Below, in pieces: positions 21,712 through 63,402 of a stretch of DNA of 64,000 nucleotides. The position numbers and the translations under genes are program-made. This stretch comes from Miscanthus floridulus (Eukaryota > Streptophyta > Magnoliopsida > Poales > Poaceae). The stretch covers positions 104,957,111 to 105,021,110 of the forward strand of contig NC_089584.1 in the NCBI RefSeq assembly GCF_019320115.1, in the 5' to 3' direction. The notes beneath the pieces were generated by a model that had not been told where the DNA came from, did not search any database, and saw only the letters and a list, made by a program, of their open reading frames with translations. Each line of letters opens with the position of its first letter. Within the stretch, counting starts at the first letter, position 1.

Positions 21712-22203
21712 TGTTAGATTAATCTCTAATTCTAACTGAACCCAACGGTTCAGTTGGGCCTTTGATTCGCGCCCTTATCGGGGGCGCCCAGCCCATCATG
21801 TCTAGAGGGCCCCTGTCACCCTGCGCTATAAAAAGAGGTGGGGGCCGGCGGCTCTTATCACGAGGTTGACCTGAGCTGTGCTCCCCACCGACACCTAAAC
21901 CCTAATCCGATCTAGTGAGGGGCGCAGCCAGTGACGGGAAGCCACCAGCCGCGCGGCCCGCTCCATCGACGTCGACGTCTTCATCGCCCTCTTCACCGAT
22001 CGTCGCTGCCCGTGCGCAGACTACCCCGACGAACCCGATGGCGGCCTCTGAACCCTCCCCCTCCGCGGTGTTAGGTTCGTCAGCCCTTATCCATCCTCCC
22101 TGTATCTCTGTCTCTCAGTCTAGAACAAGTGCTAGGACATGCTACCTTTTTACATGAAGTACCCGGCTAGATCTACGCTCCTAGACGATTCTATAGTCTA
22201 ACA
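21712..22203 (+). repeat. 5' LTR of the Copia element in EF2
   Basis: 492 bp, TGTTAGATTAATC to TATAGTCTAACA. A TATA box TATAAAAA is at 21827-21834. The primer site TGGTACCAGAGCC follows at 22205-22217. Confidence 0.92.
21827..21834 (+). promoter_or_regulatory. TATA box of the Copia 5' LTR
   Basis: TATAAAAA in the context GCGCTATAAAAAGAGG; the same block is in the 3' LTR at 43518-43525. Confidence 0.65.
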
Positions 22204-25789: not shown

Positions 25790-25941
25790 AATGATGAGGG
25801 GGAGCATGGTAGCTTGAGAAATTGACCTTGAAGAGAAGCGGGTGTATGCGCCCACTCCAATGATTCATGAGCCATTTTTCTCACTACCTGCTGTGCTGCA
25901 CCGACAGTATAAGATACTATGGTGCCAGCGCCTGCTGTTAT

Positions 25942-28900
25942 TGTAACAGAACTGACCAAATCATAAGAACGTAAGTACAAAAACAATCACCGAAGCGATC
26001 AAATTCCTGTACTTAAGCTCCCATAATCCCGGTAGTCCAGAAATCACAAAGGATTTCAACCAACTCTCGACATACAAACCAAGATCATAGTGATTCAACA
26101 CAACACATCATCCGTTACAACATTTCACAAGTAGCATTCGGATTACATCCATCAGAGTTGAAATAGAATATTACAAACCAAGTTTGAGTGTGCGGAAGCA
26201 ACATAGTTTAGTACAAAACATCATGAATTTCAAATACATTGCCAAGGCTGAGTCATGTCCCACAAAAGCATTATCAGGTACGAGAACTAGTAGAGACCGT
26301 GCCCAACGGTCTAGTCTTCATCCCCAGCTGGGAGAAGGCAGTACTTGCAGCAACCAAAGTAGAACTGGTCATCTGCAACAGGTGGGAGATAAACCCTGAG
26401 TACGAGAAGGTACTCAGCTAGACTTACCCGACAAAAACAGAAATAAAGACACCAAGGATCATGCAAGGCTTTTCAGGTGGGCTAGCTTGACACAGTTGCA
26501 TAAAAGAGCTTAAGATTATAGTAACCAATTTAAACTTAGTATCAAGCTTATCATTATTTACCTGTCCACTAGATTAGCACCTGTACTAGAGCACTCACTT
26601 ATTAGGAGCAAACAATATTAACCATAGCAGGTATAATAAGGCTGTCATCATCATATCATTATTTCCGAACCATTATGTTATTAAGTGTATCTACATTGGA
26701 GATAAGCCCGTCAAGTTCTCACTAACCGGGAGAGACGGCGATTCGAATCGAATTACAACTCAGCTGAGGGGGTATTCCTAACTCTCACCCTGGCATACTT
26801 AGCAAGGGTAGCCGTGGGTTACCTTTGGTACAACTCAGGAACTAAATTCGCGGGTTCGATCAGCGCCAGCGCTCTCAGGGATTACCCTTCTGCCAGGACG
26901 ATCAGGACTTTTAAATCACCTGCCCTTGGACTCACGCCTACGGCTCCCTTCCAAGGCATACTTTATACTTATCGACTCCCGGCCTGAGTTGAGCTACTCG
27001 GCTTCGCGGTCGGTCTCCAGACCCGGCCAACTAAGAGAGAGGCATGCGTTCAACATGAACAGGAAAGGCTCCAAGAATCAGTCCTTAAGCGACGCAGACG
27101 GAGTCACTGCAAACCGGCAAGCCTCCGTCCGGTCTTCATTTCAAATTAAGACTGGTTCTTTTCCACGATAGCAAATATAGCCAACCGTGCCACATGTATA
27201 TTCCTATATCTCGCAGGTGACAGGAAATCACCCGACTTCTACCGCATTTAAGCAGGGCTAAGCACTACTCGAGCCTGAGCTACATAGGATTCAGAGTAAC
27301 AATATCTGGACAAGGATTGGGTAACCAATGCAGCAATTGTTTGCATCCAACACCTAACTTAATGCAACAATATATATATGTAACAATAATATTGTAACTG
27401 CATTTCAGAAATTAGGAGGCTTAATATGCTCCGGGGCTTGCCTTTCACAAAGTTGCAAGGACGGTGATTCGGACACTCAACGGCGACCTCGTCTGGCACT
27501 TCTCCTGAAGGCTGCTCCTCCTGAATCTCCGGTGTCGGCTGCTGCTGCTCGCTCAGTTCCTCGAATTCCAGTAGGGTTACTCCTTCCGGTACACCTATTG
27601 CATGCCGATGCAAAATATAAATATCATGGATGCATAAGGAATGACATGATGCTCATGATGAATGAATCACAGTGAGTGTTTACGAAAGTATCACTGGACA
27701 CTCGTTTACCGAGTAATTAGCTCTATTCAAATCACTTTAAGCATGTATCTACTTAACTTAAAGACAAGATCACTTACCTACCTTGCATAACCTAAGATAA
27801 AGATGCTCATCTTCAGTTAAAGGCCTAACACCTAGGAACATTACCACAACTTAGAAATAATAAAGGTATACATAATTTAACATTTAAGTTTCATATGCAT
27901 ACAAGTAGTCCCTTAATTAAATCACAACTAAAGTTCTACAATTCCAAATGACTTGCATGAGGACATTCTGGAAAGCTTATGAAATTCTCTACAAAACATT
28001 TGTAAACATCAAAGCATGATTCTTATGTTAACTAAATCAATTTCCAGCAAACCTAGAATCTGTCCAGAATGACGGGGTTACTAACTTAATTATTTAATGA
28101 TTGTGCAAAAGCATACTTTGATCAAACCAAGTTTACCAACTTGTTTTGCATACCTAATAAACATCAGAAAGTATAGTGTCAACTTCTAAATAAATTATTT
28201 AATACCCTTTTCTAATTTATCTAGTTAATTAGGTGATTAAAGCAATATATAGTAAAAATATTTATAAAAATCTACAAAAATTACAGTAGCTATCTCATGC
28301 TGCACATAGACCATCATAAAAATTTGAAAGCCATTGAGTAAGTATAACAGTCTACACAAAAATGATAAGGCATACTGGCTTAAAATGGCATAATTAAGAA
28401 ATCCTAATGAAAAGTGTCAAGCAACAGATTTCACATTTTTCCTAGCATCATTCTAGCATAAGAATAGTACCCACCAAATTTTACCTTTACTGAATCTATA
28501 GAAAAATTATGAAAATTCACACAAGATCCACCCATTAATAAAAGGAAATTCTATAACTTAAAAACTACACATGCACTAGCTCTGAAATTTTAACCAGAGA
28601 CTCTACTAAACCAAAATAGAGGACCCACAAAATTTCATAATTTTTGGGCCACAGAAACTCAAGATAAAATTCAAACAAGTTTGCATGCTTCTAAAAACAC
28701 ATTTCAAACTCCTATTTAATTCATCCTATTTTTCTAAAACATGTGCTCATATACTATTTTTGTTAAATACTAGACAATACTAGGAACTCAACAAAATTAG
28801 AACCATGGCATTTGGATCTATATACTAAGAAATACAAATTTTTGAATATCAATACAAATCTGTGAAATAATAAAACAAAATAAATAAGGAAACAAAACTC

Positions 28901-30623
28901 AGCCACAGCTGGGCCGGCCTGAAGAATCACGGCGGCCCGCGACTCACGCGCTGGCGTGGCCCAACGCGATGCGGCCCACGCTGGGCTCCCGCCTCAGCCA
29001 CGACGGCTGACAGGGAGGACCCGCATGTCAGCGAGACAGGCAGGGGAGGAGAAGGGGACGGCGGCGAAGCTCGTCGCCGGTAGCTTCTCTGGCGAAGGCA
29101 AGGGTGTCTACGTGCTCGCCTCATCCTAGCGAACCTAGGGGAGCCCTTAGTTGTAGCTATTGACGCCGCTAGCGGGGGTGGCGATGGCCACGGTGGCGCT
29201 CGGCCACGGCGTGGCCGGCTCCGACGACGATACGGCGTCACAGCCCAATAGGGCGACCCTACGAGCTACGGCAGCATGCCTAGACCCTAGCGTGAGATGG
29301 AGGAGGGATGGCAAGGACGCGAGGAGAGCTGGCCGCGTGGAGCATCATCTCCAGCGAGAACAGCCACGGCGGCGGCGGAAAGGAATGACGAATTCGTCCT
29401 TACCATGGCACAATCGACCTGGCTGAGGGGTGGGGGTGGTAGAGGGGATCACGACGAGGCTACAGGCGGACGGGGCAATGCATTTTCGCGGTGGCGTGCT
29501 CACACGGCAGTGGCAATGCTTGGTCGGCAATGGCAGACGGAAGAGCTCTCGACGCTGCGTGCGGTGGGAGGAGAGGAAAAGCGAAATGGGACGGGCGAGT
29601 GCGTCGGACAGGCGCGCGGGGTGCTCAAGACGCGGCTGCGATGCCAGGAGGCGCACGGCGCGTGGCAGCACGATCAGCCGGCCGACGATGCACGGCACAC
29701 ACGCGTCTGGCGTTTTCTGAAAACGTTCGGTCACTGTAGCGCGCATTCAGTCGACTTGGATCGCCTGACAGCGTGAATTCAACGCCTTACTACGGCTAAT
29801 CCAGTGATGCTTTGCAGAAATGGTGTACATGAAAAATGTAGAGGTACCATCCAGCTACATTTTCCTTTCAAGGACCATTTCCTAATTCGCCATGGATCAG
29901 TAGTTATATGAAGCCCAAGTTGGCCTGATCCAACTGAAAATGCAGTTTAAGACTTAGACAAATTTTTCAGTGAAATCAGCATGTAATTTTGACTTGTGGG
30001 CCATGTTTGAGCATGTTCCACACATTTTCATGAGTTGGCCATAAAACAACTTTTGTTCCTTGATAAATTAGCTACAACTTTGGTAAAGAGTGCACAGCCA
30101 TGCAAAGCCTCTAAGTTGGTCTTTTGAATTAGTCAAACAGTGAGACTCCTAGGGTCAATTCTAGTCAAACCTTCACTCAAGGGCAATTTTGTCATTTTGA
30201 CCTACATGAACAATGTCCAAACAATTTCTCTAAGTGTAGTTAAGGTGCATTAGACCATGATCAACCACTTTACACAATTGTTATACCATTTCAATTGATC
30301 ACATGTGATGAAACAATCAAAACAAGCAATTTACCCAATGTTGCGATGAAATGTTTCAATACAATGTTTCACATGTTGCATGACCTTGTTGTTATCCTAT
30401 ACTTGTCACATTACTACCATGTTGCCATGTTTCAAGGTATGAGAGTTTCATGTTGCATTCCCATGTTGCACTACTACCACTCTAAGCAATCAAGCATGAA
30501 ACACATACAATTTAAAATGTTGCATACGTATGTTTCAATGATAATGGCATGATGACATGGATAATGCACATGTTTATGAAATGACATGCAATTAGTAGAA
30601 GCCAAAACACCTATGGTGTTACA
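25942..30623 (-). repeat. 3' LTR of the Tekay-like element (4682 bp)
   Basis: AT-rich apart from a GC-rich island at about 28905-29790. Several open frames inside are not supported as genes. The pol frame ends within its first bases (GGG CTG TAA at the LTR start). Confidence 0.92.
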
Positions 30624-30640: not shown

Positions 30641-30830
30641 AAATCTCGTCCCGAGATTTGGAAAGCGTACCATTTAGTATAGAAAGTTGGATGATTTTCC
30701 TTTAAATAATCTTCCCGCTCCCAGGTTGCATCCCGTTCACTATGATTACTCCAAACTACCTTGTATAATTTAACTACTCATGTACGAGTCACTCTTTCTT
30801 GAGTATCCAGGACTTGCACGGGCTTTTCTT
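30624..30830 (-). pseudogene. Chromodomain-like C-terminus of Gypsy pol
   Basis: After the integrase the minus strand reads YEEKPVQVLDTQERVTRT, a stop, then VVKLYKVVWSNHSERDATWE and REDYLKENHP. The pattern (aromatic/hydrophobic strand, KVVWSNH, ATWE) is that of the chromodomain or degenerate chromodomain carried by Tekay/Del chromoviruses, which helps target integration to marked chromatin. The frame reaches the LTR. Confidence 0.7.
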
Positions 30831-33800
30831 CATAAGAAAGATCAGATTTCAGGTTGACTTTCCTTGTTGCTATTATCTCCTCAGGAATACGAAGACACTT
30901 CTTAAGCTGGGACACATGGAATACCGGGAATATAGCTCCCATCTCCCATGGTAGATCGAGCTTATATGCTACTCTTCCACTTTTCTCGATAATGCGGTAG
31001 GGTCCAATATATCGAGGCTCAAGTTTCCTTTTAATTCCAAAACGCTTGACTCCTTTCATAGGGGATACCTTCAAATACACATGATCACCTACTTCAAACT
31101 CAATAGGTTTTCTTCTCTTGTCAGCATAGCTCTTTTGTCTAGCCTGTGCGGCAGTCATATTCTTCTGTATAGTTCAGACTTGCTATTCGGCTTCTTTTAC
31201 AAAATCAATACCATAGAATCTTCTTTCTCCGGGTTCCACCCAGTTCAAAGGAGTTCTACACTTGCGGCCATAAAGAGCTTCAAAAGGAGCCATTTTGATA
31301 CTTTCTTGATAACTGTTGTTATAAGAGAATTCAGCGAGAGGTAACCAGTCTTCCCAAGAGCCTTTGCAAGAGATAAGACAAGCTCTAAGCATGTCTTCAA
31401 GAATTTGATTAACACGCTCGGTCTGTCTTGATGTTTGCGGATGATAGGCAGAACTGCGGATTAGATGAGTGCCAAGATTCTGATGTAAGCACTCCCAAAA
31501 GTGAGCCGTGAACTGAGGTCCTCTATCAGAAATAATGGATTTGGGTACACCATGGAGACGTACTACTTGTTGAAAATAAATCTCAGCATAATTGTGCGGG
31601 TGATAGGTAGACTTGACCGGAATAAAGTGAGCAGATTTAGTTAGACGATCTACGATAACCCAGATGGAATCACAATCCTTTTTGGTAGTGGGTAGTCCAA
31701 CAATAAAATCCATGCTAATTTCTTCCCACTTCTAGCCAGGAATAGAGAGTGGCTGTAATAGTCCAGGCCTTATGTGAATAGCCTTGACTCTGCAACAGTT
31801 ATCACACCTTGCCACGTAAGCTGCGATTTCTTTCTTCATCTTGGTCCACCAATAATACAGCTTGAGATCTTGATACATTTTACTGCTACCAGGATGGATG
31901 GACAATTTAGAAGAATGGGCTTCAGCCATAATTTGATTTCTAAGTTCTTTATCTTTGGGTACCACAAGCCTATCATTAAACCAGAGAATTCCCTTGTCAT
32001 CGACCTTAAAGTGCTTGGTCTCTTTCTCTTTCATCTTCCGTTTGATGTGAAATACCCCCACATCCGTCTTCTGGAGTTCAATAATTCGACTTCTAAGAGA
32101 GCAATCCACAGTGATATTGTGGAGTACTACAGGATGAAGGAGGTGTGCTAGATGAAAGTCTTCACTAACTAAGGAATTGCAATGGGCCTTTCTGCTTAAG
32201 GCATCAGCAACCACATTTGCCTTACCCGGATGGTAGTGCACTTGAAGGTTGTAGTCTTTGATTAATTCTAACCATCGTCGTTGATGCATGTTCAACTCAG
32301 GCTACGTAAAGATGTACTTGAGACTCTTATGGTCAGTATAGATGTTGCACACATTACCAAGCAAGTAATGTCTCCAGATCTTCAGGGCATGAACAACTGC
32401 GGCTAGCTCTAAGTCATGGGTAGGATAGTTGACTTCATGCTTTCAGAGCTAGCGTGAAGCATAAGCAATTACTCGACCCTCCTGCATAAGAACACACCCC
32501 AAACCGGTGCCACATGCGTCACAGTAGACATCAAAAGGCTTCTCGATGTTAGGTTGTGCCAATACAGGAGTAGAGGTTAGTAAGGTCCGCAAAGCGTGGA
32601 AAGCCTCTTCACACTTTGGAGTCCACACAAACTTCTCATCCTTTTGCAGTAGCCAAGTCATGGGCTTGGCGATCTTTGAGAAATCCGGGATAAAGCGACG
32701 ATAATAGCCCGCCAATCCCAAGAAACTTCGGACTTCTGTGACCGTAGTAGGTGCCTTCCACTCAAGGACTTCTTGCACCTTAATAGGGTCAACCGAAATT
32801 CCATCACCAGATAATACATGACCAAGAAAAGGTATCTTGTTCAACCAGAACTCGCACTTGCTGAACTTAGCATAAAGCTGGTTATCACGTAACCGAGTTA
32901 AAACAATTCTCAGATGTTCAGCATGCTCTTCTTCATTCTGAGAATATACCAGGATATCATCAATGAACACGACGACAAATTTATCCAATTCTGGCATGAA
33001 TACAGAATTCATCAGGTACATAAAGTGTGCCGGAGCATTTGTCAACCCGAATGACATGACGAGGTATTCGAACAAGCCATAACGAGTAGAGAAAGCTGTC
33101 TTAGGTATATCTTCAGGACGAATTTTGATCTGATGGTAGCCAGACCTCAAATCAATCTTGGAGAATACCTTAGCCTTGGAGAGCTGATCAAACAGAATAT
33201 CGATGCGAGGAAGAGGGTATTTGTTCTTGATAGTAATAGCGTTGAGGGGGCGATAATCCACGCACATGCGTAGAGACTCGTCCTTCTTCTTCACAAATAT
33301 AGCCGGACAACCTCAAGGAGAAGAACTAGGCCGAATCAACCCTTTCTTCAATAGCTCATTCAACTGACTCTTCAGCTCAGCCAACTCATTGGGTGGCATT
33401 CTATAGGGCCTTCGAGAAATGGGAGCCATACCCGGAATGAGTTCTATCTTGAATTCTACATCACGGTCCGGAGGTAATCCAGGCAAGTCATCAGGAAAGA
33501 CATCTGGAAACTCATAGACAACCGGTAGATCCTTAATGGCTTTGGCTAAGGTAGCGTTGGCTGTACTGTGGATAGCAATATCACGAGGTAACTGCACTAG
33601 AAAACCTTTCTTATCCACAGGATCCCTCAACATAACCACATGGGTTGATGTATCGATCAACACCCCATTCCCGCTCATCCACTTCATTCCTAGGATTACA
33701 TCGATTCCTACGCCCGGTAGAACTACAAGATCCACAAGGAACTCTCGATCCCCGATCTCAATCTTTACATCTTTAACTACTTGGTTAGTCATGATATTAT

Positions 33801-34080
33801 TCCCAGCAGCACTAATACAATAACCCCCCTTGACAATTGTAATCCCATTCATCTGATGCTTAGATGCAAAAGTAGAACTCACAAAGGAATGCGAAGCACC
33901 AGAATCAAAGAGCACAACTGCAGGGTGATCATTAACACGGAACTTACCAGCAGTGACCACTTCACCAGCAGGAATTTCCTCCACTGTAGTATAGTGAACA
34001 CGCCCCTGACGGACGTTTCCTTGAGCATTATTGGGAGGATGAGGACATCTATTTGCCCAATGACCAGGCTGGTTACAGTT
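30790..34080 (-). pseudogene. pol: Gypsy pol: zinc knuckle, protease, RT, RNase H, integrase
   Basis: In order: zinc knuckle, then protease at 33313-33984 with [13 protein letters not shown] at 32449-33300 with [29 protein letters not shown] and the catalytic [11 protein letters not shown]; RNase H to about 32240 with [13 protein letters not shown] and [13 protein letters not shown]; integrase zinc finger with HSSKLSIHPG and CDNCCRVKA (31800-31940); integrase core at 31183-31713 with SMDFIVGLP, ISDRGPQFTAHFW and QTERVNQIL. The C-terminal GPY-type block is DHVYLKVSPMKG and PRYIGPYRI. Stops near 33311, 32450, 32440, 32312, 31732 and 31180 are nearly all explained by C-to-T or G-to-A changes. 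Confidence 0.9.
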
Positions 34081-35008
34081 CTAGCATGGCCTGTTTGCTG
34101 GTGGAACATTGGAGCTACCCTGCCCAGAGGTATTCTTTGGCAAGGAAATTGTATACCCCTTGCGGAAACCGGTTTTAGCTTGGTTCTTCTTCTGAGGTGG
34201 GCGGTACCGGATGTTAGCATTGGATGGACGGTACGGGGTCTTAGATACCATTGGAGCCTTGGACTGGGAAGCACCAGCCTCAAAGTTCCTTTTACGGTTC
34301 TTGGAAGCAGCATAAATCTTGTCATTGTTCTCCTGAGTCAGAGTGTCACTGATAAACTCATTGAAGGTGACACACTTGCAGTTGCCCATTGACTTCATCA
34401 GTTTTGGGGAAAGTCCCCTCTTGAAGCTAGCTATTCTCTTAGCATAACTCGGGAGCATACCTTGCTAGGTTGTTGAATGCCTGGAGGTACTCATTGAGAC
34501 TCTTATTGCCTTGGGTGAGCTTCATAAACTCAGTATGCTTAATGGCCATGAGACCAGGAGGGATAAAGTGTCCCCTGAAGGCTACCTGGAACTGGTTCCA
34601 AACGATCTCAACGTTAGCAGGGAAGGTGGTCCTGTGATGGGTCCACCAGATGCCTGCAGGGCCTTGGAGCTGGTGTCCTGCATACGTAGCCTTCATGCCT
34701 TCAGTCAAACGGAGCAATCCAAATCTTTGCTCTATCGTGCTCAACCATTCATATGCTTGTAAGGGTTCTTCTGCCTCATGAAAGATAGGAGGCTTTGTGT
34801 CCATGAAGTCCTTAAAGCTGCTGTACTGGTTTGGCTCGGGTCCCTGGCAGACATGCCGATCCTCACGGTTGGCCATCTAGCGCATAGCCTCAGCTAGCAT
34901 GCGCTGACTTTCCACAACTATCTGCATTAGCTCAGCTGGTGTGGGCGGTGGCAGAGGTGGTTGTTCCTCATTTCCCATGCCACGACTGTGACGAAGGTTA
35001 TGAGCCAT
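34081..35008 (-). pseudogene. gag: Gypsy gag (Tekay-like), frameshifted
   Basis: Starts MAHNLRHSRGMGNEEQPPL; a TAG follows EAMR at about 34877. The capsid-like core reads FMDTKPPIFHEAEEPLQAYEWL, then WWTHHRTTFP, FRGHFIPPG and LNEYLQAFNNLARYAPE, as in plant retrotransposon gag. A small deletion near 34450 changes frame; the rest gives KRIASFKRGLSPKLMKSM. The zinc knuckle lies just below 34081 ([12 protein letters not shown]), interrupted by a TAG. Confidence 0.85.
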
Positions 35009-35299: not shown

Positions 35300-35421
35300 A
35301 TCAAGGGTAACATAGGGTTTGATATTACATCCCAACGATTAACTTGCTACAAAGTTACTCGTTCATGCATGAGGATCAACAAAAGACTAGATCTAGCGCA
35401 TTAGCTCAGTAATAAGCTAAA

Positions 35422-36006
35422 CTATGCATCGTCCTCGGAGTCAGTGTCGAAGATCTCTCCTCCATCTTCATTACTAGGAGGCTCTAACTCCTCATCTTCC
35501 TCCTCATCAGGTGGAGCGTCCTCAGGTCCATTGACTTCCATGTCATCATCACCTTCAGCCATGATGACACCAGAACCCAATTCATCCTCATCATCAGGTG
35601 GCAGGATAGGGTGAAGTTGATTGTGCAGTAGGTGAACCTCCTCATGGAGATTATCATTGTACTCTTTTGCAGCCGCCAACTACTGCTCTAGCTCAATCTG
35701 CCTCGCTCTCAACACATTCTCCTCGTGCCAGGCTTCATTCCGTTGGTTCAGCATGTGAACCAACATACGCTCACAGTTGTGGTGAGCAACTGTCAACCTC
35801 TGAACCTCCAGGTTCTCTTGATCCCATTCCTGCATGACTTGCTCCAAACGCTGCTGAACTGCAGTCCTTTCAGCAGTCACCTGAGCCAGCTCTGCCCTCA
35901 GCCTTTCCGCCTCAGTAGGCTCGGGACAGGGCTCACGAGGAGCTAAACGGTGACGAGGCGCCCTACCTCCAGCGGACTTGCGAGCAGTGCGTTTCGTGCG
36001 CGCCAT
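35422..36006 (-). pseudogene. Extra ORF upstream of gag: histone H3 tail-like N-terminus, coiled coil, acidic C-terminus
   Basis: From the ATG at 36006 the product (194 codons, one in-frame TAG at codon 109) starts M-ARTKRTARKSAGGRAPR. Aligned to the mature histone H3 tail, 16 of the first 23 positions are identical, including R2, K4, R8, K9, S10 and the GG and APR blocks; K14 is Arg. No histone fold follows. Residues of about 35-135 are rich in Leu/Glu/Gln/Arg with heptad-like spacing (LRAELAQVTAERTAVQQRL), likely a coiled coil. The C-terminus is strongly acidic (DEEEDEELEPP, DTDSEDDA). It lies between the leader and gag in the sense orientation of the element, with gag starting 414 bp downstream. 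Its role is unknown; imitation of H3 to engage chromatin readers is an inference. The TAG could be a simple C-to-T change. Confidence 0.75.
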
Positions 36007-36748
36007 CTGTAGCAAAAAGTTACAACGTAAGGGGAGAATCATTTAAGGGATACGAAATTTAATTAGTCGGGACAATCAAATTTTTAAGGGAGGGAATAAT
36101 GCAAGAAATGCCATGTATGCTTGAACATGATGCATGCACGATCCGTACGTCCTCACAAACCTAGAAAAATTTAAAGGCTAGCGAAATATACGGTGGCATA
36201 CATACGTTCTCTCGTATATGGTAGCTAGTCGATCTACAACGATACGTTGTTAGTGTACCTACAGAAAAATTCATTTCAGCCCAATAATTTCCCAAAAAGC
36301 ATAGAAAACAAGCAGTAACTAAATACTTTCATACATACATCCCTTGATGCATATACTCTAGTATCATAGCTACCCGTCAGAGATACCCACATTTAAGTAC
36401 TCTCATAGATACATGATCAAACATGTAAGTATGCGAGCAACCACAACTACTCTCCCCTAGACCGACGGTTGGACGGTCATGCTCTCACAACTCTCCACTT
36501 ACCAGAGCGTAGAGGTATTTGGATCCATACATTACCACCCAAGCGGATGGCATCCATACAATAGCACGCCGTATGGACGACGAACAGAAACAAGCAGGAA
36601 CCCCCAAGTTAGTACTTTAATAAGCCACCTAAGAGTCCTTATTTGGGCATAAGGGATATGGCCACTGGCAATACTTAGTATTTAATTAAGGATTTTCACA
36701 AATACTTTTGTTTTAAATACACAAATGACGTGTTTAGTGTCAAATCTT
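36007..36748 (-). other. Untranslated leader of the Tekay-like element
   Basis: No coding frame seen. It ends in TTTTTGCTACAG immediately before the ATG at 36006, which has the form of a splice acceptor. Confidence 0.55.
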
Positions 36749-36762
36749 GCTCTGATGCCAGC
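36749..36762 (-). other. Primer binding site of the Tekay-like element
   Basis: The minus strand reads GCTGGCATCAGAGC directly after the LTR end; TGGCATCAGAGC is one base from the usual initiator tRNA-Met site. Confidence 0.75.
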
Positions 36763-39700
36763 TGTAACAGAACCGACCAAATCATATGAACGTAAGTACA
36801 AAAACAATCACCGAAGCGATCAAATTCCTGTACTTAAGCTCCCATAATCCCGGTAGTCCAGAAATCATGAAGGATTTCAACCAACTCTCGACATACAAAC
36901 CAAGATCGTAGTGATTCAACACAACATATCATCCGTTACAACATTTCACAAGCAGCATTCGGATTACATCCATCAGAGTTGAAATAGAATATTACAAACC
37001 AAGTTTGAGTGCGCGGAAGCAACATAGTTTAGTACAAAACATCATGAATTTCAAATACATTGCCAAGGCTGAGTCATGTCCCACAAAAGCATTATCAGGT
37101 ATGAGAACTAGTAGAGACAGTGCCCAACGGTCTAGTCTTCATCCCCAGCTGGGAGAAGGCAGTACTTGCAGCAACCAAAGTAGAACTGGTCATCTGCAAC
37201 AGGTGGGAGATAAACCCTAAGTACGAGAAGGTACTCAGCTAGACTTACCCGACAAAAACAGAAATAAAGACACCAAGGATCATGCAAGGCTTTTCAGGTG
37301 GGCTAGCTTGACACAGTTGCATAAAAGAGCTTAAGATTATAGTAACCAATTTAAACTTAGCATCAAGCTTATCATTATTTACCTGTCCACTAGATTAGCA
37401 CCTGTACTAGAGCACTCACTTATTAGGAGCAAACAATATTAACCATAGCAGGTATAATAAGGCTGTCATCATCATATCATCATTTCCGAACCATTATGTT
37501 ATTAAGTGTATCTACATTGGAGATAAGCCCGTCAAGTTCTCACTAACCGGAGAGACGGCGATTCGAATCGAATTACAACTCAGCTGAGGGGGTATTCCTA
37601 ACTCTCACCCTAGCATACTTAGCAAGGGTAGCCGTGGGTTACCTTTGGTACAACTCAGGAACCAAATTCGCGGGTTCGATCAGCGCCAGCGCTCTCAGGG
37701 ATTACCCTTCTGCTAGGACGATCAGGACTTTTAAATCACCTGCCCTTGGACTCACGCCTACGGCTCCCTTCTAAGGCGTACTTTATACTTATGGACTCCC
37801 GGCCTGAGTTGAGCTACTCGGCTTCGCGGTCGGTCTCTAGACCCGGCCAACTAAGAGAGAGGCATGCGTTCAACATGAACAGGAAAGGCTCCAAGAATCA
37901 GTCCTTAAGCGACGCAGACGGAGTCACTGCAAACCGGCAAGCCTCCGTCCGGTCTTCATTTCAAATTAAGACTGGTTCTTTTCCATGATAGCAAATATAG
38001 CCAACCGTGCCACATGTATATTCCTATATCTCGCAGGTGATAGGAAATCACCCGACTTCTACCGCATTTAAGCAGGGCTAAGCACTACTCGAGCCTGAGC
38101 TACATAGGATTCAGGGTAACAATATCTGGACAAGGATTGGGTAACCAATGCAGCAATTGTTTGCATCCAACACCTAACTTAATGCAACAATATATATATG
38201 TAACAATAATACTGTAACTGCATTTCAGAAATTAGGAGGCTTAATATGCTCTGGGGCTTGCCTTTCACAAAGTTGCAAGGACGGTGATTCGGGCACTCAA
38301 CGGCGACCTCATCTGGCACTTCTCCTGAAGGCTCCTCCTCCTGAATCTCCGGTGTCGGCTGCTGCTGCTCGCTCAGTTCCTCGAATTCCAGTAGGGTTAC
38401 TCCTTCTGGTACACCTATTGCATGCCGATGCAAAATATAAATATCATGGATGCATAAGGAATGACATGATGCTCATGATGAATGAATCACAGTGAGTGTT
38501 TATGAAAGTATCACTGGACACTCGTTTACCGAGTAATTAGCTCTATTCAAATCACTTTAAGCATGTATCTACTTAACTTAAAGACAAGATCACTTACCTA
38601 ACTTGCATAACCTAAGATAAATATGCTCATCTTCAGTTAAAGGCCTAACACCTAGGAACATTACCACAACTTAGAAATAATAAAGGTATACATAATTTAA
38701 CATTTAAGTTTCATATGCATACAAGTAGTCCCTTAATTAAATCACAACTAAAGTTCTACAATTCCAAATGACTTGCATGAGGACATTCTGGAAAGCTTAT
38801 GAAATTCTCTACAAAACATTTGTAAACATCAAAGCATGATTCTTATGTTAACTAAATCAATTTCCAGCAAACCTAGAATCTGTCCAGAATGACGGGGTTA
38901 CTAACTTAATTATTTAATGATTGTGCAAAAGCATACTTTGATCAAACCAAGTTTACCAACTTGTTTTGCATACCTAATAAACATCAGAAAGTATAGTGTC
39001 AACTTCTAAATAAATTATTTAATACCCTTTTCTAATTTATCTAGTTAATTAGGTGATTAAAGCAATATATAGTAAAACTATTTATAAAAATCTACAAAAA
39101 TTACAGTAGCTATCTCATGCTGCACATAGACCATCATAAAAAGTTCAAAGCCATTGAGTAAGTATAACAGTCTACACAAAAATGATAAGGCATACTGGCT
39201 TAAAATGGCATAATTAAGAAATCCTAATGAAAAGTGTCAAGCAACAGATTTCACATTTTTCCTAGCATCATTCTAGCATAAAAATAGTACCCACCAAATT
39301 TTACCTTTACTGGATCTATAGAAAAATTATGAAAATTCACACAAGATCCACCCATTAATAAAAGGAAATTCTAAAACTTAAAAACTACACATGCACTTGC
39401 TCTGAAATTTTAACCAGAGACTCTACTAAACCAAAATAGAGGACCCACAAAATTTCATAATTTTTTGGCCACAGAAACTGAAGATAAAATTCAAACAAGT
39501 TTGCATGCTTCTAAAAACACATTTCAAACTCCTATTTAATTCATCCTATTTTTCTAAAACATGTGCTCATATACTATTTTTGTTAAATACTAGACAATAC
39601 TAGGAACTCAACAAAATTAGAACCATGGCATTTGGATCTATATACTAAGAAATACAAATTTTTGAATATCAATACAAATCTGTGAAATAATAAAACAAAA

Positions 39701-41443
39701 TAAATAAGGAAACAAAACTCAGCCACAGCTGGGCCGGCCTGAAGAATCACGGCGGCCCGCGACTCATGCACTGGCGTGGCCCAACGCGATGCGGCCCACG
39801 CTGGGCTCCCGCCTCAGCCACGACGGCTGACAGGGTGGACCCGCGCGTCAGCGAGACAGGCAGGGGAGGAGAAGGGGACGGCGGCAAAGCTCGTCGCCGG
39901 TAGCTTCTCCGGCGAAGGCAAGGGTGTCTACGTGCTCACCTCATCCTAGGGGACCTAGGGGAGCCCTTAGTCGTAGCTATTGACGCCGCTAGCGGGGGTG
40001 GCGTTGGCCACGGCGGCGCTCGGCCATGGCGTGGCCGGCTCCGACGACGATACGGCGTCGCAGCCCAATAGGGCGACCCTACGAGCTACAGCAGCATGCC
40101 TAGACCCTAGTGCGAGACGGAGGAGGGATGGCAAGGACGCGAGGAGAGCTGGCCACATGGAGCGTCATCTCCGGCGAGAATAGCCACGGTGGCGGCGGAA
40201 AGGAATGACGAATTCATCCTTACCACGGCACAATCGACCTAGCTGAGGGGTGGGGGTGGCAGAGGGGATCACGGCGAGGCTATAGGCGGACGGGGCAACA
40301 CGTTTTCGCGGTGGCATGCTCGCACGGTAGCGGCGATGCTTGGTCGGCAATGGCAGACGGCAGAGCTCTCGACGCTGCGTGCGGTGGGAGGAGAGGAAAA
40401 GCGAAATGGGATGGGCGAGTGCGTCGGACAGGCGCGCGGGGTGCTCAAGACGCGGCTGCGATGCCAGGAGGCGCACGGCGCATGGCAGCACGATCAGCCG
40501 GCCAACGACGCGCGGCGCACACGCGTCCGGCGTTTTCTGAAAATGTTCGGTCACTATAGCGCGCATTCAGTTGACTTGGATCGCCTGACAGCGTGAATTC
40601 AACGCCTTACTACGGCTAATCCAGTGATGCTTTGCAGAAATGGTGTACATGAAAAATGTAGAGGTACCATCCAGCTACATTTTCCTTTCAAGGACCATTT
40701 CCTAATTCGCCATGGATCAGCAGTTATATGAAGCCCAAGTTGGCCTGATCCAACTGAAAATGCAGTTTAAGACTTAGACAAATTTTTCAGTGAAATCAGC
40801 ATGTAATTTTGACTTGTGGGCCATGTTTGAGCATGTTCCACACATTTTCATGAGTTGGCCATAAAACAACTTTTGTTCCTTGATAAATTAGCTACAACTT
40901 TGGTAAAGAGTGCACAGCCATGCAAAGCCTCTAAGTTGGTCTTTTGAATCAGTCAAACAGTGAGACTCCTAGGGTCAATTCTAGTCAAACCTTCACTCAA
41001 GGGCAATTTTGTCATTTTGACCTACATGAACAATGTCCAAACAATTTCTCTAAGTGTAGTTAAGGTGCATTAGACCATGATCAACCACTTTACACAATTG
41101 TTATACCATTTCAATTGATCACATGTGATGAAACAATCAAAACAAGCAATTTACCCAATGTTGCGATGAAATGTTTCAATACAATGTTTCACATGTTGCA
41201 TGACCTTGTTGTTATCCTATACTTGTCACATTACTACCATGTTGCCATGTTTCAAGGTATGAGAGTTTCATGTTGCATTCCCATGTTGCACTACTACCAC
41301 TCTAAGCAATCAAGCATGAAACACATACAATTTAAAATGTTGCATACGTATGTTTCAATGATAATGGCATGATGACATGGATAATGCACATGTTTATGAA
41401 ATGACATGCAATTAGTAGAAGCCAAAACACCTAGGGTGTTACA
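36763..41443 (-). repeat. 5' LTR of the Tekay-like element (4681 bp)
   Basis: Near-identical partner of 25942-30623, with the same GC-rich island at about 39725-40610. It would carry the promoter of the element. No TATA box stood out. Confidence 0.92.
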
Positions 41444-41455
41444 GTTATTCTGCCT

Positions 41456-43221
41456 ATGGCAACAATGAATGACAGTGAGGAACCTGTTCTTCAGGATCCT
41501 ATAGAACCAATTGCCACACATGAGGGCGAGCAACAACAGCCTCAAACAGAAGATGTGCCAAATATGAAGGCCCATAGAAGGTCTCAAAGAGTTAGAAAAT
41601 CAGCTATTCCTGTTGACTATGAAGTGTACAACACTAAGGAATTTCAAATAAAGGATGATCCCACATCATTTGAAGAAGCCATGAGAAGTGATCATTCATC
41701 AAAGTGGCTGGAGGCCATGGAAGATAAAATGAAATCTATGAATGCTAATAAAGTTTGGGATTTAGAAATAATTTCTAAAGGAGCCAAAACAGTAGGCTGT
41801 AAATGGGTCTACAAAACAAAACTTAACTCTCAAGGGAATATAGAGAGATATAAAGCGCGACTTATGGCAAAAGGCTTTACGCAAAGAAAATGGATTGATT
41901 ACAATGAGACATTTTCTCCGGTCTCATGTAAGGATTCCTTTAGAATCATAATAGCATTAGTGGCACATTACGATTTAGAATTACATCAGATGGATGTAAA
42001 GATGATATTTCTCAACGGGGACTTGGAGAAAAATATTTACATGGCACAATCGAAAGGTTTTGTCATGGAAGGAAAAGAACGAATGGGATGCTGCCTAAAG
42101 AAATCCATTTATGGATTAAAACAAGCTTCAAGACAGTGGTACTTGAAGTTTGATCGGACAATAAGAAATTTTGGGTTTAAAGAGAATGTAGAGGACAATT
42201 GTGTCTATACAAAGTTTAAGAATGGGAAGTTCATCTTCTTTGTCCTGTATGTGGATGATATCTTACTTGCTAGTAGTGATGTCAGTCTACTACTGGAGAC
42301 AAAGAAGTTTTTATCCTCAAAATTTGATATGAAAGATCTTGGTGAAGCTTCATTCGTTCTAGGGATCGAGATTCACCGAGATAGAAGTAAAGGGGTATTA
42401 GGACTGTCACAAAAGGCATACATAGAGAAAATCTTAAAGAAATTCAGTATGCACAAATATAGTCCCCCACCTGCTCCTATAGTCAAGGGCGACAGATATA
42501 GGGATTTTCAATGCCCTAGGAACCAATATAAGATCGATCAAATGAAAGCGGTTCCATATGCTTCAGCTGTCGGAAGCTTGCAATATGCTCAAGTATGTAC
42601 GCGCCCTGACTTAGCATTTGTTACCGGGTTACTTGGCAGATTCCAGAGCAATCCTAGAATAGAACACTAGAAATTAGTAAAGAAAATCTTGCGTTATTTG
42701 CAAGGAACGAAAGGCCTCATAATGACGTATAGAAGATCTGATTCACTCCATATAGTGGGGTATTCAGATTCTGATTATGCAGGAGATGATAGAAAATCCA
42801 TGTCTGGATATGTATTCACTCTCGCAGGGGAGCTATTTTATGGAAAAGCTCAAAACAAACCGTCACTACATCATCCACAATGTATGCCGAGTTTGTAGCG
42901 TGTTATGAGGCAACGGGGCAGGTGAACTGGCTAAAGAAGTTCATACCTGGTTTGAAGGTGGTTGACGACATCTATAGACCACTTAAGTTATATTGCGATA
43001 ATAATCCGGCAGTACAGTATGCTCACAACAATAAGTCAAGTGGTGCTACCAAACACATTGATATAAAGTATTATGTTATAAAAGATAAAGTCCAGGATCA
43101 AGTCATAAGTCTTGAGCATATAAGTACAGTAAAGATGCTCGCGGATCCGCTTATAAAAGGCTTACCACCCAACATGTTCAGAGAACATGTAGCCGACATA
43201 GGTTTAAGGGAAAGCCTATAA
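41456..43221 (+). pseudogene. pol: Copia pol 3' part: RT and RNase H
   Basis: After the nested element the frame runs open for about 400 residues: linker with RRSQRVRKSAIPVDY, RT with CKWVYKTKLNSQG, HQMDVKMIFLNGDLEK, YGLKQASRQWYLKF and the catalytic LYVDDILLAS, then QKAYIEKIL. After a stop at 42668 and a frameshift near 42880, RNase H continues with YSDSDYAGD, MYAEFVACYEA, LYCDNNPAVQY and KHIDIKYYVI. Ends LRESL at 43221, 182 bp before the 3' LTR. Confidence 0.88.
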
Positions 43222-43402: not shown

Positions 43403-43892
43403 TGTTAGGTTGATCTATAATCCTAACTGGACCCAACGGTCCAGTTGGGCCTTTGATTCGTGCCCTGATCGGGGGCGCCCAGCCCATTATGGCTGGAGGG
43501 CCCCTGTCACCCTGCGCTATAAAAAGAGGTGGGGGCCGGCGGCTCTTATCACAAGGTTGACCTGAGCTGTGCTCCCCACCGACACCTAAACCCTAATCTG
43601 ATCTAGTGAGGGGCGCAGCCAGTGACGGGAAGCCACCAGCCGCACGGCCCGCTCCATCGACGTCGACGTCTTCATCGCCCTCTTCACCGACCGTCGCTGC
43701 CCGTGCGCAGACTACCCCGACGAACCCGATGACAGCCTCTGAACCCCCCCTCCACGGTGTTAGGTTCGTCAGCCCTTATCCATCCTCCCTGTATCTCTGT
43801 CTCTTAGTCTAGAACAAGTGCTAGGACATGCTACCTTTTTACATGAAGTACCCGGCTAGATCTACGCTCCTAGACGATTCTATAGTCTAACA
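43403..43892 (+). repeat. 3' LTR of the Copia element in EF2
   Basis: 490 bp, TGTTAGGTTGATC to TATAGTCTAACA, pairing with 21712-22203. TATA box TATAAAAA at 43518-43525. Followed by target duplication GATTC. Confidence 0.92.
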
Positions 43893-46937: not shown

Positions 46938-48262
46938 TTACAAAGAACGATTATACAACCCAACAACGATTGATTCACGAAACACATTCATCACTTCTGC
47001 ATCTTCCCTTGACGGTGCCGGAGTAGTTCGTGGCTGAGAGTACGACGCTTCAGGTGGGACATAATTCTCATCACGATCACAAAGTGCAAAGTCCCTATCC
47101 ACTAATCCACTAGCTCTAATGAAGTTATGTAGTGCCATGCAAGCAACAATTATTTTGGTCTGGACATATGGAGGATAAGCAGGGATCCCTAGCAGAATCC
47201 TCCATTTCATTTTCAGTACTCCAAAACACCTCTCTATCACATTCCTAAGCGATGAATGTGTGAAGTTGAAGATTTCATTTTTACCTTCGGGCTCCGGGCC
47301 GTCACGGTACTCCGGAAGATGATATTTGGTTCCCTTGAACGGTGCAAGGTATCCCGGACGGTTTGGGTACCCGGAGTCCACTAGGTAAAACTTTTCTGCA
47401 CAATTATGAACTGCGGTTAGCTTCCATTAACTCAAATAGGAAACAAAACTACCTCAACTACAACAATGTGTACCTGATGGTGGATGTGGAAACTTATTGC
47501 TCCATTTGTCCATAGCATCATTGAATACTCTCATGTCATGTACAGAACCAGGCCATCCAGCAAGCACAAATGTAAACCTCATGTCAAAATCACAGCAAGC
47601 CATGACGTTCTGGGTTGTAATGTTCTTGCGGCACATGTGTTGAACCATCAAATCCTTGTCTACGATTACTGGTACGTGAGTGCCATCTATTGCTCCAATA
47701 CAATTGTTAAAAAGGGAGAGAATCTAGGATTCTGCAATCTAGGATGCATATCACTGAAACTTGGGTCCCTTGGGCAGATGATTTCTGCAGCTAGCTTGCA
47801 AACATATTTCAACACTTTCATGAAGTTGTCATGAATTATACCTAGTGACCTCTCAAATCTATCCTCAGCCTGCCTAACTGACTGTGGTGCTCCAACCATC
47901 CATAAGAACATTCCTAATGCTTCAATAGAGGAACACTTATTAGTGGATTTCAGGCCATAAGACTCTAGCTTTTTATGGAGTCTGTAGAACAAAGTTGGAG
48001 TCATCCTAAACATTTTGTAGCAGCTCTCTCTGTTTGATAGCTTTCTCTCTACCCACTTTATCCTAGGTACCAATGGTATTCTGTACTCTGATCTAGATAG
48101 ATATTTTTCAGTATGCAGAGCAAAAAGAAGCATACCACTAGTTAAATGAGAACCTTCATCATCCACAAGCATGCTGGTTACTTCATCATCACTTGAATCA
48201 GAGCTGCTGGAACTACTTGAACTGCTGGAGCTACTTGACTTGCTTGAGCTGCTCACATCCAT
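46938..48262 (-). pseudogene. PIF/Harbinger transposase (DDE superfamily 4), one frameshift
   Basis: Cuts and joins the element at TWA targets. Exon 1 is 47474-48262 and exon 2 is 46938-47395, with GT-AG intron borders and frame kept (GEKFYLVDSG across the junction). It starts MDVSSSSKSSSS, a Ser-rich tract, then RMTPTLFYRLHKKLE and the helix-turn-helix-like region SIEALGMFLWMVGAPQSVRQ. Catalytic residues: first Asp in GAIDGTHVPV, second in AGWPGSVHDMRVF, Glu in NVIERCFGVLK. A missing base near 47695 (PFLTIVLEQ in place of the expected PFFNN) shifts frame just before the first Asp. Otherwise full-length. The C-terminus is GLYNRSL. Confidence 0.85.
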
Positions 48263-49502
48263 TGTTGTTTCAAGTACCTGACAAATTGAATACATGAAAT
48301 AGTTAGTAGTGACACCATTCAAAATAACTTAAGCAGCTCAGAATAAATAGTGAGTACTAAATCTGCAAGTATTCAATAAATAGTGAGTACTGACATCCAT
48401 ACATGACTTAGTTCACATAGTTCAAATGACACACACATCACATACATGCAAGTATTCAATAAATAGTGAGTACTGACATCACATACATGACTTAGTTCAC
48501 ATAGTACTGACAGCACAGAATAACTTCAAATCACACACATCACTTAGTTCACACACATACATGACTTATTTCAAATGACACACACATCACATAGTTCAAA
48601 TGACACACACATGACTCTGGATGACAGACATTGACACACAGGACTAGTTGTTGACACTGACATAGTATTCAATGAACCCCTTCCTTGCATCTGGATCAGT
48701 CTTCTTGAAGAAAGTCATAGTCTTCTTGTCCTTACAGATCTGTAGGACAGTGTACCACAGCCTTATATTATTTGGTTGAACACCACAGTCCCTTGCCATC
48801 TGCTGCACAATTTCAACTTCATCTTCCTCTTCCTTTCTCTTTTCTTCCCTGCATCTTTTCTTCATGATTGCCTTCATTTCAGCCTTCCTTTCCTACAGTT
48901 CAACGTGTCTTTCCATCATCTTGTTCTTGTCTTCACCGATCCTGGTTTGCTCACTGATAACCTTGTCCATTAGCTTGATAGCTTGGCTTTTGGACTTGGA
49001 CTTCTTGTTGGGACTAGTGGCACAAGTACTAGCAGTACTGGCCCTCTTGTTGCTATTACTACTGGCTGGGGTCTGAACATTTAGTGATGGCTCCTCCTCC
49101 TCAAATTCTTCATTTGCACTAGGAACATAAGCTGTAGAACCATCAACTGCTACACTTTCAAACATTTGCTCCAACTAGGGCATGTAATGTGGCCATCCAT
49201 GTTTCAGCTTCTTCCAATCAGCCTTACCCTACAACACTTGGTAGTGTGAGAAGATTGGAGCATCATGGATAGTGTAGTAAGAACAGAGAAGATTGGAGCA
49301 TAACCTTAGTCTTTGACTCCCACCACTCATCATCTACAATGATAGCCCCATCAGAGTTACGGCCTAGTCCTGTGTCAGTCTTCAGTTGCTTTATAAATTG
49401 CCACAGAGCCTTGAGCTGCCTGTACCTAAACATTATCTGTTCTCTGTCATGCACTTTGCTAGTAGCATTAGTGTACTGCCTAATGACCTCCCTCATTCCT
49501 AC

Positions 49503-49972
49503 TATCGATGAAATATGGTCGGCAGTCTACCTAGGGGTATGCCCAAGGTAGTAGATTATCGGCAGACAGGTGCGTAAGCCCCAAACAAGATGGTGACGCA
49601 AGACGGACACAAGGTTTTATCCAGGTTCGGCCGCCAAGAAGGCGTAATACCTACGTCCTGCGTCTGATTTATATTGCTGTATGTCAATAGATGATTTTTA
49701 GAGGGGTCCCCTGCCCGCCTTATATAGTCCGGGGAGTAGGGTTACAGATCTGGAAACTAATCCTAGTCAGTTACAATTGCCATATGTGGCCAGATAAGGA
49801 TTCCTATTCTAACCGACCAGGATCCTGCTTGATCGCCAAATCCGTCTTGATTCCTTGTGCGGGACTCCAATCAGGTTAGCTGGGCTGCACGTCGTCTTTC
49901 GGGTGGACTGGACCTGTCGATCCGGGCCAGCCCAAGTTTAGCCGTAAGGGTATAGGGGTTAATACCCCCACA
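49503..49972 (-). repeat. 3' LTR of the Tat element
   Basis: On the minus strand TGTGGGGGTATTAACCCC to CATCGATA (terminal CA changed to TA). TATATAAG box on the minus strand at about 49719-49726. Confidence 0.9.
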
Positions 49973-50217
49973 GCTAGTCCCCGAGCATCATGTATTATGC
50001 TGCGACACGCCATTTTAACCTTCTCCGACAAGTAAGGCTTGAGTCCTTGACGCCTCTGACCATCGTCATCACCGGAGAAGTAGGTTGTCCGAAGAATGTA
50101 TGGTGCTCTTAAGAAAAAAGAAAAAGATTTCTGTCTTGAGAAGTGTGCCCACTTGTATTTCTGAAAAGAAATGTAAGTGGTCTTGAAGCATAGCGTCCTT
50201 GAACATCAGAAGCGTAG

Positions 50218-61962: not shown

Positions 61963-62010
61963 CTTGTTTGCTTGGAGAGCAGTACGCACACCCCCTACCT
62001 GGCATGCCAC

Positions 62011-62480
62011 TGTCGACGAAATATGGTCGACAGTCTACCTAGGGGTATGCCCAAGGTAGTAGATTATCGGCAGACAGGTGCGCAAGCCCCAAACAAGACG
62101 GTGACGCAAGACGGACATGAGGTTTTATCCAGGTTCGGCCGCCAAGAAGGCGTAATACCTACGTCCTGCGTTTGATTTGTATTGCTGTATGTCAATAGAT
62201 GATTTTTAGAGGGGTCCCCTGCCCACCTTATATAGTCCGGGGAGCAGGGTTACAGATCTGGAAACTAATCCTAGTCAGTTATAATTGCCATATGTGGCCA
62301 GATAAGGATTCCTATTCTAACCGACCAGGATCCTGCTTGATCGCCAAATCCGTCTTGATTCCTTGTGCAGGACTCCAATCAGGTTAGCTGGGCCGCACGT
62401 CGTCTTTTGGGTGGACTGGACCTGTCGATCCGGGCTAGCCCAAGTTTAGCCGTAAGGGTATAGGGGTTAATACCCCCACA
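62011..62480 (-). repeat. 5' LTR of the Tat element
   Basis: TGTGGGGGTATTAACCCC to CGTCGACA on the minus strand; TATATAAGG near 62228-62236. The primer-site-like TGGCATGCCAGGTAGGGGG starts two bases inside, at 62009. Confidence 0.9.
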
Positions 62481-63402
62481 CCTACCTTGGTCATTGTACC
62501 TTTCGTGCAGTTACCAATGTCAATCTGGTTACACCAGATCATACATAGTTTCTCTGTATTGTCCTCACTCTAATCAGCCCTACTTTTAATAGTCTAAAAC
62601 ATGCACAAGAAAAATTGAGCTAAGAATCATGCTGAAGAATCATAGCCTTCAGTTCAGATTATCTACACATATATCTCGCCTGATGATGACCTAGCTAGCT
62701 AGGAGCAGACACTACACATATATCAACATTGCAAGAATGTAATGGTACAGCTAAGAAAAATACCCTTGGAGCGTTGGGTAGGATCTCGACGTCGTCACCG
62801 TCATTGGAGGTGTTGGACGCGAAGTCGTCCTCCGCGACGGCTGGCACCCGAGGACGTCTACCGCAGGCTGTGGAGCCTTCTGCCACGCCGGAGGTAGACT
62901 TCTGCCGTGGGCCGTGGAGGCTTCTTTGTGACGCGTCGCGACCAACAGCCAACACACCACTACCACGGCCACCACCGGAGAACGTCGAGGTAGCGCACCC
63001 GGACCCAGCTCCAACTCCAGTGCTGCGAGGAGCACGGAAGCCAACACCTCCAGCTCCAACACTTCGGCTTGCGCTGTGGGCTCCAACGGGAGGGGAGGCA
63101 TTGGGGCTGTCGACATCTCCACCTTGAAGACCGAAGCGAAGGAGGCCTTGGTACCCTCCCATGGGCGGCCCTTGGCTGCCCTACGAGTTGAGGTCGAGGG
63201 CCGCCATGCTCGTACGGGGAGAAGCGAAGTGGCTGGATCCAGGGCCGGTGAAGGACGCCTGACTATAGCCTTGATAGCTGCCGGTGGTGGGGAGCGGCTA
63301 CGACAGGAAGTCCCTGGTGGCGTCGATGCTGCCGTAGCTGTGGCCATCACCGTGGCCGTCGTCGTCGCCGTGGAAGAAGACGTCGCCGTTGTACCCGTCC
63401 AT

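Follow-up and report, generated by a model that had tools for sequence, protein, structure and literature searches.

Several Tekay (Del)-type LTR retrotransposons of grasses, among them Retrosat2, RIRE3, RIRE8, ZMsat2 and Sorsat2, carry an additional open reading frame termed ORF0 or 5'aORF (PMC3485330; PMC11728184), and a Tekay 5'aORF has also been described in sunflower (PMC11728184). In the accessible sections of both papers, such additional 5' ORFs in grass chromoviruses have no known function, and the ORF0 of rice Retrosat2 and that of sorghum have about 10% similarity (PMC3485330). Here we describe a related element in a 64,000-nucleotide stretch of the Miscanthus floridulus genome, called the window throughout, whose ORF0 protein begins like histone H3.

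Our element resembles the described ones in placing the extra ORF between the 5' LTR and gag and in having LTRs longer than 3 kb; the LTR starts are alike as well (TGTAACACCC here, TGTCACACCC in Retrosat2 and RIRE8). The described ORF0 proteins have long disordered parts, with a long helix in the maize and sorghum versions, and those of the window family do likewise. What differs is the H3 likeness, seen in the window ORF0 and not reported in the accessible descriptions of known Tekay (Del) ORF0s. Double-stranded-RNA-binding or hydrolase families, suggested for known ORF0s, gave no Pfam match in three relatives of our protein. The ORF0 of this element group is thus already known, and the H3 likeness is what is added.

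The ORF0 element is a 15.5-kb Tekay/Retrosat2-like retrotransposon with LTRs of 4.7 kb (4.68 kb), read on the minus strand in the order LTR, leader, ORF0, gag, protease, RT/RNase H, integrase, chromodomain-like end and LTR (Table 1). The Pfam order gag-protease-RT-RNaseH-integrase is of Ty3/gypsy type, and the anatomy (LTR length, 5' ORF, chromodomain-like end, LTR start) fits the Tekay/Del (Retrosat2) group. The initial annotation, which placed an additional ORF before gag in a Tekay-like element, is borne out: ORF0 lies between the 5' LTR and gag in sense orientation, at the coordinates first given and on the minus strand, which had been left unsaid. The element's primer binding site, TGGCATCAGAGC, we take to be of the tRNA-Met type. 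The LTR pair differs by a K2P distance of 0.0204, which at a substitution rate of 1.3e-8 corresponds to about 0.8 My. The window copy is dead: it has a TAG at ORF0 codon 109 and nine in-frame stops in pol. In the chromodomain-like end, examined by eye, one cage-like aromatic is left and most of the aromatic cage seems to be missing.

Table 1 Features of the ORF0-bearing element in the window.
Feature	Position	Strand	Remarks
5' LTR	36763..41443	minus	
Primer binding site TGGCATCAGAGC	36749..36760	minus	
Leader	36007..36762	minus	756 nt, 23 upstream ATGs
5' splice-site-like GTAAGT	36497..36502	minus	motif GCTCTnGTAAGn in 83/90 closely alike copies; putative function
In-frame upstream extension MILPLRCNFLLQ	36007..36042	minus	12 residues
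3' splice-site-like TTTTTGCTACAG	36007..36018	minus	adjoins the ATG; AG in 91/92 closely alike copies; putative function
ORF0 (5'aORF) of the window copy, protein P0001	35680..36006	minus	108 residues; premature TAG 35680-35682
H3-like tail ARTKRTARKSAGGRAPRHRLAPR	35935..36003	minus	residues 1-23 after the initiator Met; 16/23 = H3
Remaining part of long helix (coiled-coil-like) before the stop	35683..35913	minus	placed from the P0132 model (helix 32-134)
Rest of helix and acidic end, same frame past the stop, cut off from the ORF	35421..35679	minus	ends with TAA 35421-35423
gag	34439..34876	minus	Pfam Retrotrans_gag, E 1.3e-16
Protease, RT, RNase H and integrase pieces	30778..34083	minus	Pfam; nine in-frame stops
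Chromodomain-like integrase end	30678..30840	minus	split by TGA 30778-30780; recognised and delimited by eye
3' LTR	25942..30623	minus	98% identical to 5' LTR
Target-site duplication GTTAT	25937..25941 and 41444..41448		both flanks of the element

The whole element is flanked by a 0.49-kb direct repeat (21712-22203 and 43403-43892, 95.7% identical), and a copia-like RT reading can be made out by eye at 41435-43221. The two repeat units have the look of LTRs from an older Ty1/copia element, with the Tekay-like element inserted inside. A second direct repeat of 0.48 kb (49494-49976 and 62003-62484, 96% identical, 12.5 kb apart) probably belongs to another LTR element, and minus-strand ORFs at 46938-48328 resemble, by eye, a PIF/Harbinger-type transposase.

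ORF0 opens with the ATG at 36006 on the minus strand, and its product starts M-ARTKRTARKSAGGRAPRHRLAPR. With the Met not counted, residues 1-4, 6-10, 12, 13, 15-17, 20 and 21 are those of H3, a recount that returns the 16 of 23 originally noticed. In the window copy K14, K18 and K23 are replaced by R, H and R, and Q5, T11, Q19 and T22 are changed too. Searched against the PDB (177,635 distinct sequences), ORF0 finds H3 as its top match (E = 1.2e-4). The best 60 of 136 matches (E up to 10) are without exception H3 or H3-type chains, including variants, modified peptides, H3/CENP-A chimeras and Cse4, and each alignment begins where H3 itself begins (construct tags disregarded) and at residue 1 or 2 of ORF0. 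For the relative P0028 the E value reaches 2.2e-5. Because the best PDB matches are H3-type and in register from the start, the likeness is not one of chance; judged on sequence, it recurs across the element family, and the tail first described as H3-like is confirmed as such. The likeness stops at residue 21-23. Past the tail, 0 of the next 22 window-copy residues compared match H3; an Arg at 26, as in H3, is found in most tail-bearing relatives (86/112).

Relatives were collected in three protein-database searches, which gave 201, 1233 and 1311 matches at E <= 10, a threshold at which weak matches are not necessarily all relatives; the best 120 of each were listed, and the two larger searches scored about 8000 candidates each. 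Tail counts refer to the 199 relatives listed from the 201- and 1233-match searches, with P0201-P0206 of the 1311-match search left out. No relative was confirmed in viral and prokaryote collections. The H3-like tail is present in 112 of the 199. The other 87 start further on, with V (31), L (17) or M (39); the 48 that begin with V or L do so at alternative starts of the gene caller, and across the 87 truncation and loss are indistinguishable. Many JGI relatives (P0137-P0171 and similar) start with VERLR or LRAEL, right behind the tail; these are perhaps gene-caller starts in eukaryotic DNA and not real tail loss. In the element's own genome, 150 of 8190 first-look candidates were scored and 150/150 match ORF0, a figure that is no measure of the share of copies keeping ORF0, as all were picked by ORF0 likeness. 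In two copies, L031 (G000:C17:69354716-69355039) and L032 (G000:C2:23345747-23346070), the open frame around ORF0 extends over 591 and 1042 residues, and ORF0 may be joined there to a neighbouring reading; both copies entered the analysis through the ORF0 alignment.

Most of the tail is kept as in H3 among the 112: A1 in 108, R2 in 87, T3 in 99, K4 in 104, T6 in 102, A7 in 105, R8 in 86, K9 in 110, S10 in 109, G12 in 88, G13 in 109, A15 in 85, P16 in 105, R17 in 65, L20 in 110 and A21 in 104. Position 11 is A (56) or T (52) and position 19 Q (59) or R (44), while position 5 varies freely (R 53, L 32, T 10, others). The remaining lysines of H3 are mostly replaced: the K14 site holds Arg in 106 and Lys in 3, the K18 site His in 108, and the K23 site Arg in 84, His in 16 and Cys in 10. 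Exact ARKS is found in 77 tails, exact ARTK or ARTR in 79, and Lys at both 4 and 9 in 102. The original emphasis on K4 is weakened, as this residue is Arg in 8 of the 112 relatives, one subfamily whose members all (8/8) have T5 and K9.

With the window included, 113 tails can be ranked by identity to H3: 2 have 18/21, 17 have 17/21 and 35, our copy among them, have 16, so that some relatives are closer to H3 than the window copy. The losses met most often (R to C/H, T to M/I, A to V/T, G to R/E) correspond to C-to-T/G-to-A changes, which decay of methylated copies would be expected to produce. Internal ORF0 stops among the own-genome matches are TAG in all cases but one, as CHG-methylated CAG would give. 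We put the incomplete ARKS and ARTK/ARTR counts down to such decay.

Sixteen of the relatives listed are full-length, spanning tail through acidic end, and measure 187-198 residues from the tail's Met. AlphaFold2 predicts for one relative, P0132 (30 sequences), a disordered tail, a single helix at 32-134 with pLDDT mostly >90, and a disordered acidic end. The long mid-protein helix supports the coiled-coil-like segment first placed after the tail. The absence of a histone fold, also proposed at the outset, agrees with this model of one helix and two disordered ends and with the lack of any Pfam histone match in the window ORF0 or three relatives. The acidic tail exists in the same frame, but outside the ORF as first delimited, after the TAG at 35680-35682 and up to the TAA at 35421-35423. 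Taken as a whole, the initial interpretation is partly supported: it retains its real H3-tail copy, extra ORF upstream of gag, mid helix and acidic end, and loses part of its stress on K4.

A free Ala1 would require the second ATG; were the in-frame upstream ATG used, Ala1 would not be N-terminal. Among 30 copies, L014 has a disrupted extension MILPLRCNFLLQ, L015 a shorter one and L011 one that lacks its ATG, and ORF0 stays. In relatives with at least 3 residues before the tail (n=55), the last of these is Q in 54, mostly behind FLL or LLL, the reading expected of a T-rich tract ending in CAG. A GTAAGT lies 496 nt upstream of the second ATG. From these motifs we infer that the leader is spliced; of the two in-frame ATGs, the second would then be the one reached first. 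The ATGs that precede the donor would stay in place. The motif counts of Table 1 come from closely alike copies, and their conservation alone is no proof of splicing. The second ATG is the probable start of ORF0.

We now propose a role for the tail, drawn from sequence comparisons and to be read as such. ORF0 would be a mimic that derives from H3 and is retained by selection, and its probable partners would be the host's readers or writers of H3, those of H3K9 foremost; we consider the odds for this reading to be evenly balanced. A Met before Ala is normally removed, which would leave an ARTK end as in H3, and the tail would then present A1, mostly K4, and A7-R8-K9-S10. K9 in ARKS is the target of plant H3K9 methyltransferases and is bound by CMT3-type readers; the host H3K9 factors are KYP/SUVH, CMT3/ZMET2 and SHH1- or AGDP1-type proteins. 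These methyltransferases and readers would meet an H3 copy that, as a rule, could not be acetylated at 14, 18 and 23: with Lys lost at these sites and K9 kept, the tail would carry the silencing mark and not those acetyl marks. The helix would drive multimer formation and so turn the protein into a multivalent ligand. As a decoy, it would draw H3K9 factors off the element's own chromatin and loosen H3K9me2/CHG silencing; in an alternative end step, the multimer would tether element complexes to H3K9 factors. We slightly prefer the decoy. Because related copies retain most of the H3 likeness, the element may imitate a chromatin signal through which plants silence it.

In its full form the tether would have the H3-like tail bind readers and bring the RNP or integration complex to H3K9me2 chromatin, replacing a chromodomain that would no longer read the mark. 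The integrase end of the window element looks cage-poor by eye, chromoviruses with an aromatic cage are reported, in the accessible part of the survey, only from non-seed plants (PMC6317226), and aORF proteins have been suggested to shape insertion preferences (PMC11728184, accessible sections). Yet neither ORF0 nor three relatives gave a match to a Pfam domain able to hold Gag, integrase or RNA, and we regard a tether of this kind as unlikely. Reading of the tail by the element's own chromodomain was also considered and is unlikely, its cage seeming by eye to be mostly gone, in accord with the accessible text of PMC6317226 and PMC11728184.

Of 105 tails (window included) from sequences of at least 86 residues, 64 (including the window and 4 with R4) formed clade A and 14 formed clade B, and these two clades were compared. 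A clade-B protein, P0023, has matches of 75-80% identity in the window's own genome, none of the 150 scored (out of 9007 candidates) being closer. Clade B is therefore probably from a different species, and the likeness of the tail probably spans species.

The H3-derived tail could also be merely a basic nuclear-localisation or nucleic-acid-binding patch, for which H3 readers would be irrelevant. It is indeed Arg-rich, the change of K14, K18 and K23 mostly to Arg or His keeps part of the charge, and nuclear localisation is predicted for further Tekay 5'aORF proteins, in which the accessible sections note no H3 likeness (PMC11728184). Between the clades, however, A7, S10, G12, G13, A15, P16, L20 and A21 diverge by no more than 0.01, against 0.30 at position 5. 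Since uncharged positions of the tail are kept in this way, a basic patch is the less likely account, and we hold it to be improbable to much the same degree as the tether.

Whether the first residues are under selection compared with the rest, as the initial annotation proposed to examine, receives a divided answer. Between clades A and B the helix has a net amino-acid divergence of 0.151, against 0.055 for the tail and 0.003 for the linker. Split by site, the tail gives 0.011 where it is identical to H3 (16 sites) and 0.172 elsewhere (6 sites). Permutation against the helix yields p = 0.064 when the tail is taken whole and p = 0.018 when the 16 sites are used, a set picked by the window copy's likeness to H3, which leans towards the result. 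Raw identity within clade A is 0.78 for the tail and 0.80-0.83 for the helix, so that within the clade the tail is no better kept; between A and B it is 0.76 and 0.65-0.72, respectively. The tail thus decays inside clades yet hardly changes between them. Loss or drift of the motif among relatives had been named at the outset as grounds for rejection; a partial check gives no such grounds, with the tail in 112 of 199 and the 16 sites far less diverged between clades than the helix.

In the element's own genome, changes over the whole ORF0 have N/S of 88/43 when seen once and 29/41 when seen at least 4 times (p = 0.0005). The comparison used 92 of the 150 scored matches, 90 of them with a full leader and all picked by ORF0 likeness; it is rough, some 'shared' changes being recurrent nonsense, and its signal comes mostly from the acidic end. 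For the tail only, N/S is 6/4 for singletons and 3/6 for shared changes, which is not significant (p = 0.37). ORF0 as a whole looks constrained. Selection for the H3-identical tail sites is supported but not proven.

A captured relic under neutral drift, whose tail has no selected role, would suit this tail-only result, as it would the whole-tail p of 0.064 and the own-genome tail variants, which are mostly C-to-T/G-to-A. It sits poorly with the silent sites, far from all 30 host H3 genes (at most 9/16 codons exact), and yet 16 of 23 residues are kept; and clades A and B differ by 28-35% in the helix and 24% in the tail, with the tail already differing by 22% within clade A. We consider drift very improbable.

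As to where the tail came from, the host genome holds 21 full-length uninterrupted H3 matches at 99-100%, plus others with introns. The intron-bearing genes, presumably of H3.3 type given their introns, read as H3 to K23 and then GT in 9 of 9 fetched. The likeness of ORF0 ends at 21-23, near this exon-1 end, and capture is therefore suggested. The tail DNA in the window is nearest to the intron-bearing L096 and L097, with 47/69 nt identical and 9/16 shared codons exact. Compared with synonymous resampling, an intron-bearing donor gives p = 0.051 for exact codons and p = 0.017 for the local match (9 intron-bearing and 21 intronless H3 genes, 30 in all), and p = 0.11 for identity, which rests on 10 genes counted as intron-bearing, L123 among them though it is not. 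Intronless H3 genes reach at best 44/69 nt (p 0.29), 6/16 codons (p 0.13) and a local p of 0.04. An intronless donor is the weaker candidate (44 vs 47 of 69 nt; 6 vs 9 of 16 codons). CENH3 was set aside as donor, since the starts of grass CENH3 would seem to match ORF0 worse.

That the tail descends from the first exon (residues 1-23) of an H3.3-type host gene with introns is thus supported, if not proven, at the sequence level, and capture of this exon is the best account of the tail's origin, with moderate support. GCAG stands directly before the ATG in 3 of the 9 intron-bearing H3 genes (L100, L101, L121) and CTACAG at ORF0; the splice acceptor adjoining the ORF0 ATG was possibly captured along with exon 1. 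Chance, or a convergent basic N-terminus without descent from H3, is hardly credible: at the DNA level descent has modest support (p = 0.017 to 0.11), but 21 residues align in register from residue 1 (E 1.2e-4 and 2.2e-5), the likeness stops near the exon-1 boundary, and selected convergence would be mimicry all the same. Returning to the decoy, its most specific form, in which exon 1 of an H3.3-type gene was captured as a multimeric, K9-methylatable, non-acetylatable decoy against the H3K9me2-CMT3 silencing loop, is one we put forward tentatively, as possible though doubtful in all its parts together.

The word 'histone' is absent from the accessible main texts of PMC3485330 and PMC11728184 and from the accessible part of the additional-ORF review PMC7264820, and a histone-tail protein goes unmentioned in the accessible parts of the reviews PMC12786077 and PMC12085086 and the survey PMC6317226. 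Full-text searches, covering the main text of largely open-access journal articles, turned up no retrotransposon described as carrying an H3 tail. Plant transposable elements are known to mimic host molecules and to compete for host factors (PMC12085086); as far as the accessible text goes, that mimicry concerns microRNA target mimics, DNA decoys and domesticated transposase proteins, and no histone-tail protein.

The H3 tail on ORF0 offers a concrete, peptide-sized hypothesis for what the protein of an extra 5' ORF does, and it touches the H3K9me2 pathway by which transposable elements are silenced. If confirmed, the transposon would encode a mimic of the histone tail, a type of counter-measure not met in the literature searched, and, on the decoy reading, a histone mimic turned against epigenetic silencing in plants. 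With histone H3 itself (intron-bearing, H3.3-type) ORF0 has in common residues 1-21 without gaps, and K4, K9, R8, S10, GG, APR and LA; unlike H3, it has no histone fold but a helix and an acidic end instead. Short H3-like stretches on non-histone proteins reportedly include the influenza NS1 tail, the G9a self-methylation site and SNAG domains. Such animal and viral mimics are a few residues long and are thought to engage H3 enzymes or readers. Unlike them, the stretch in ORF0 covers about 21 residues, is likely a true N-terminus, and belongs to a plant retrotransposon.
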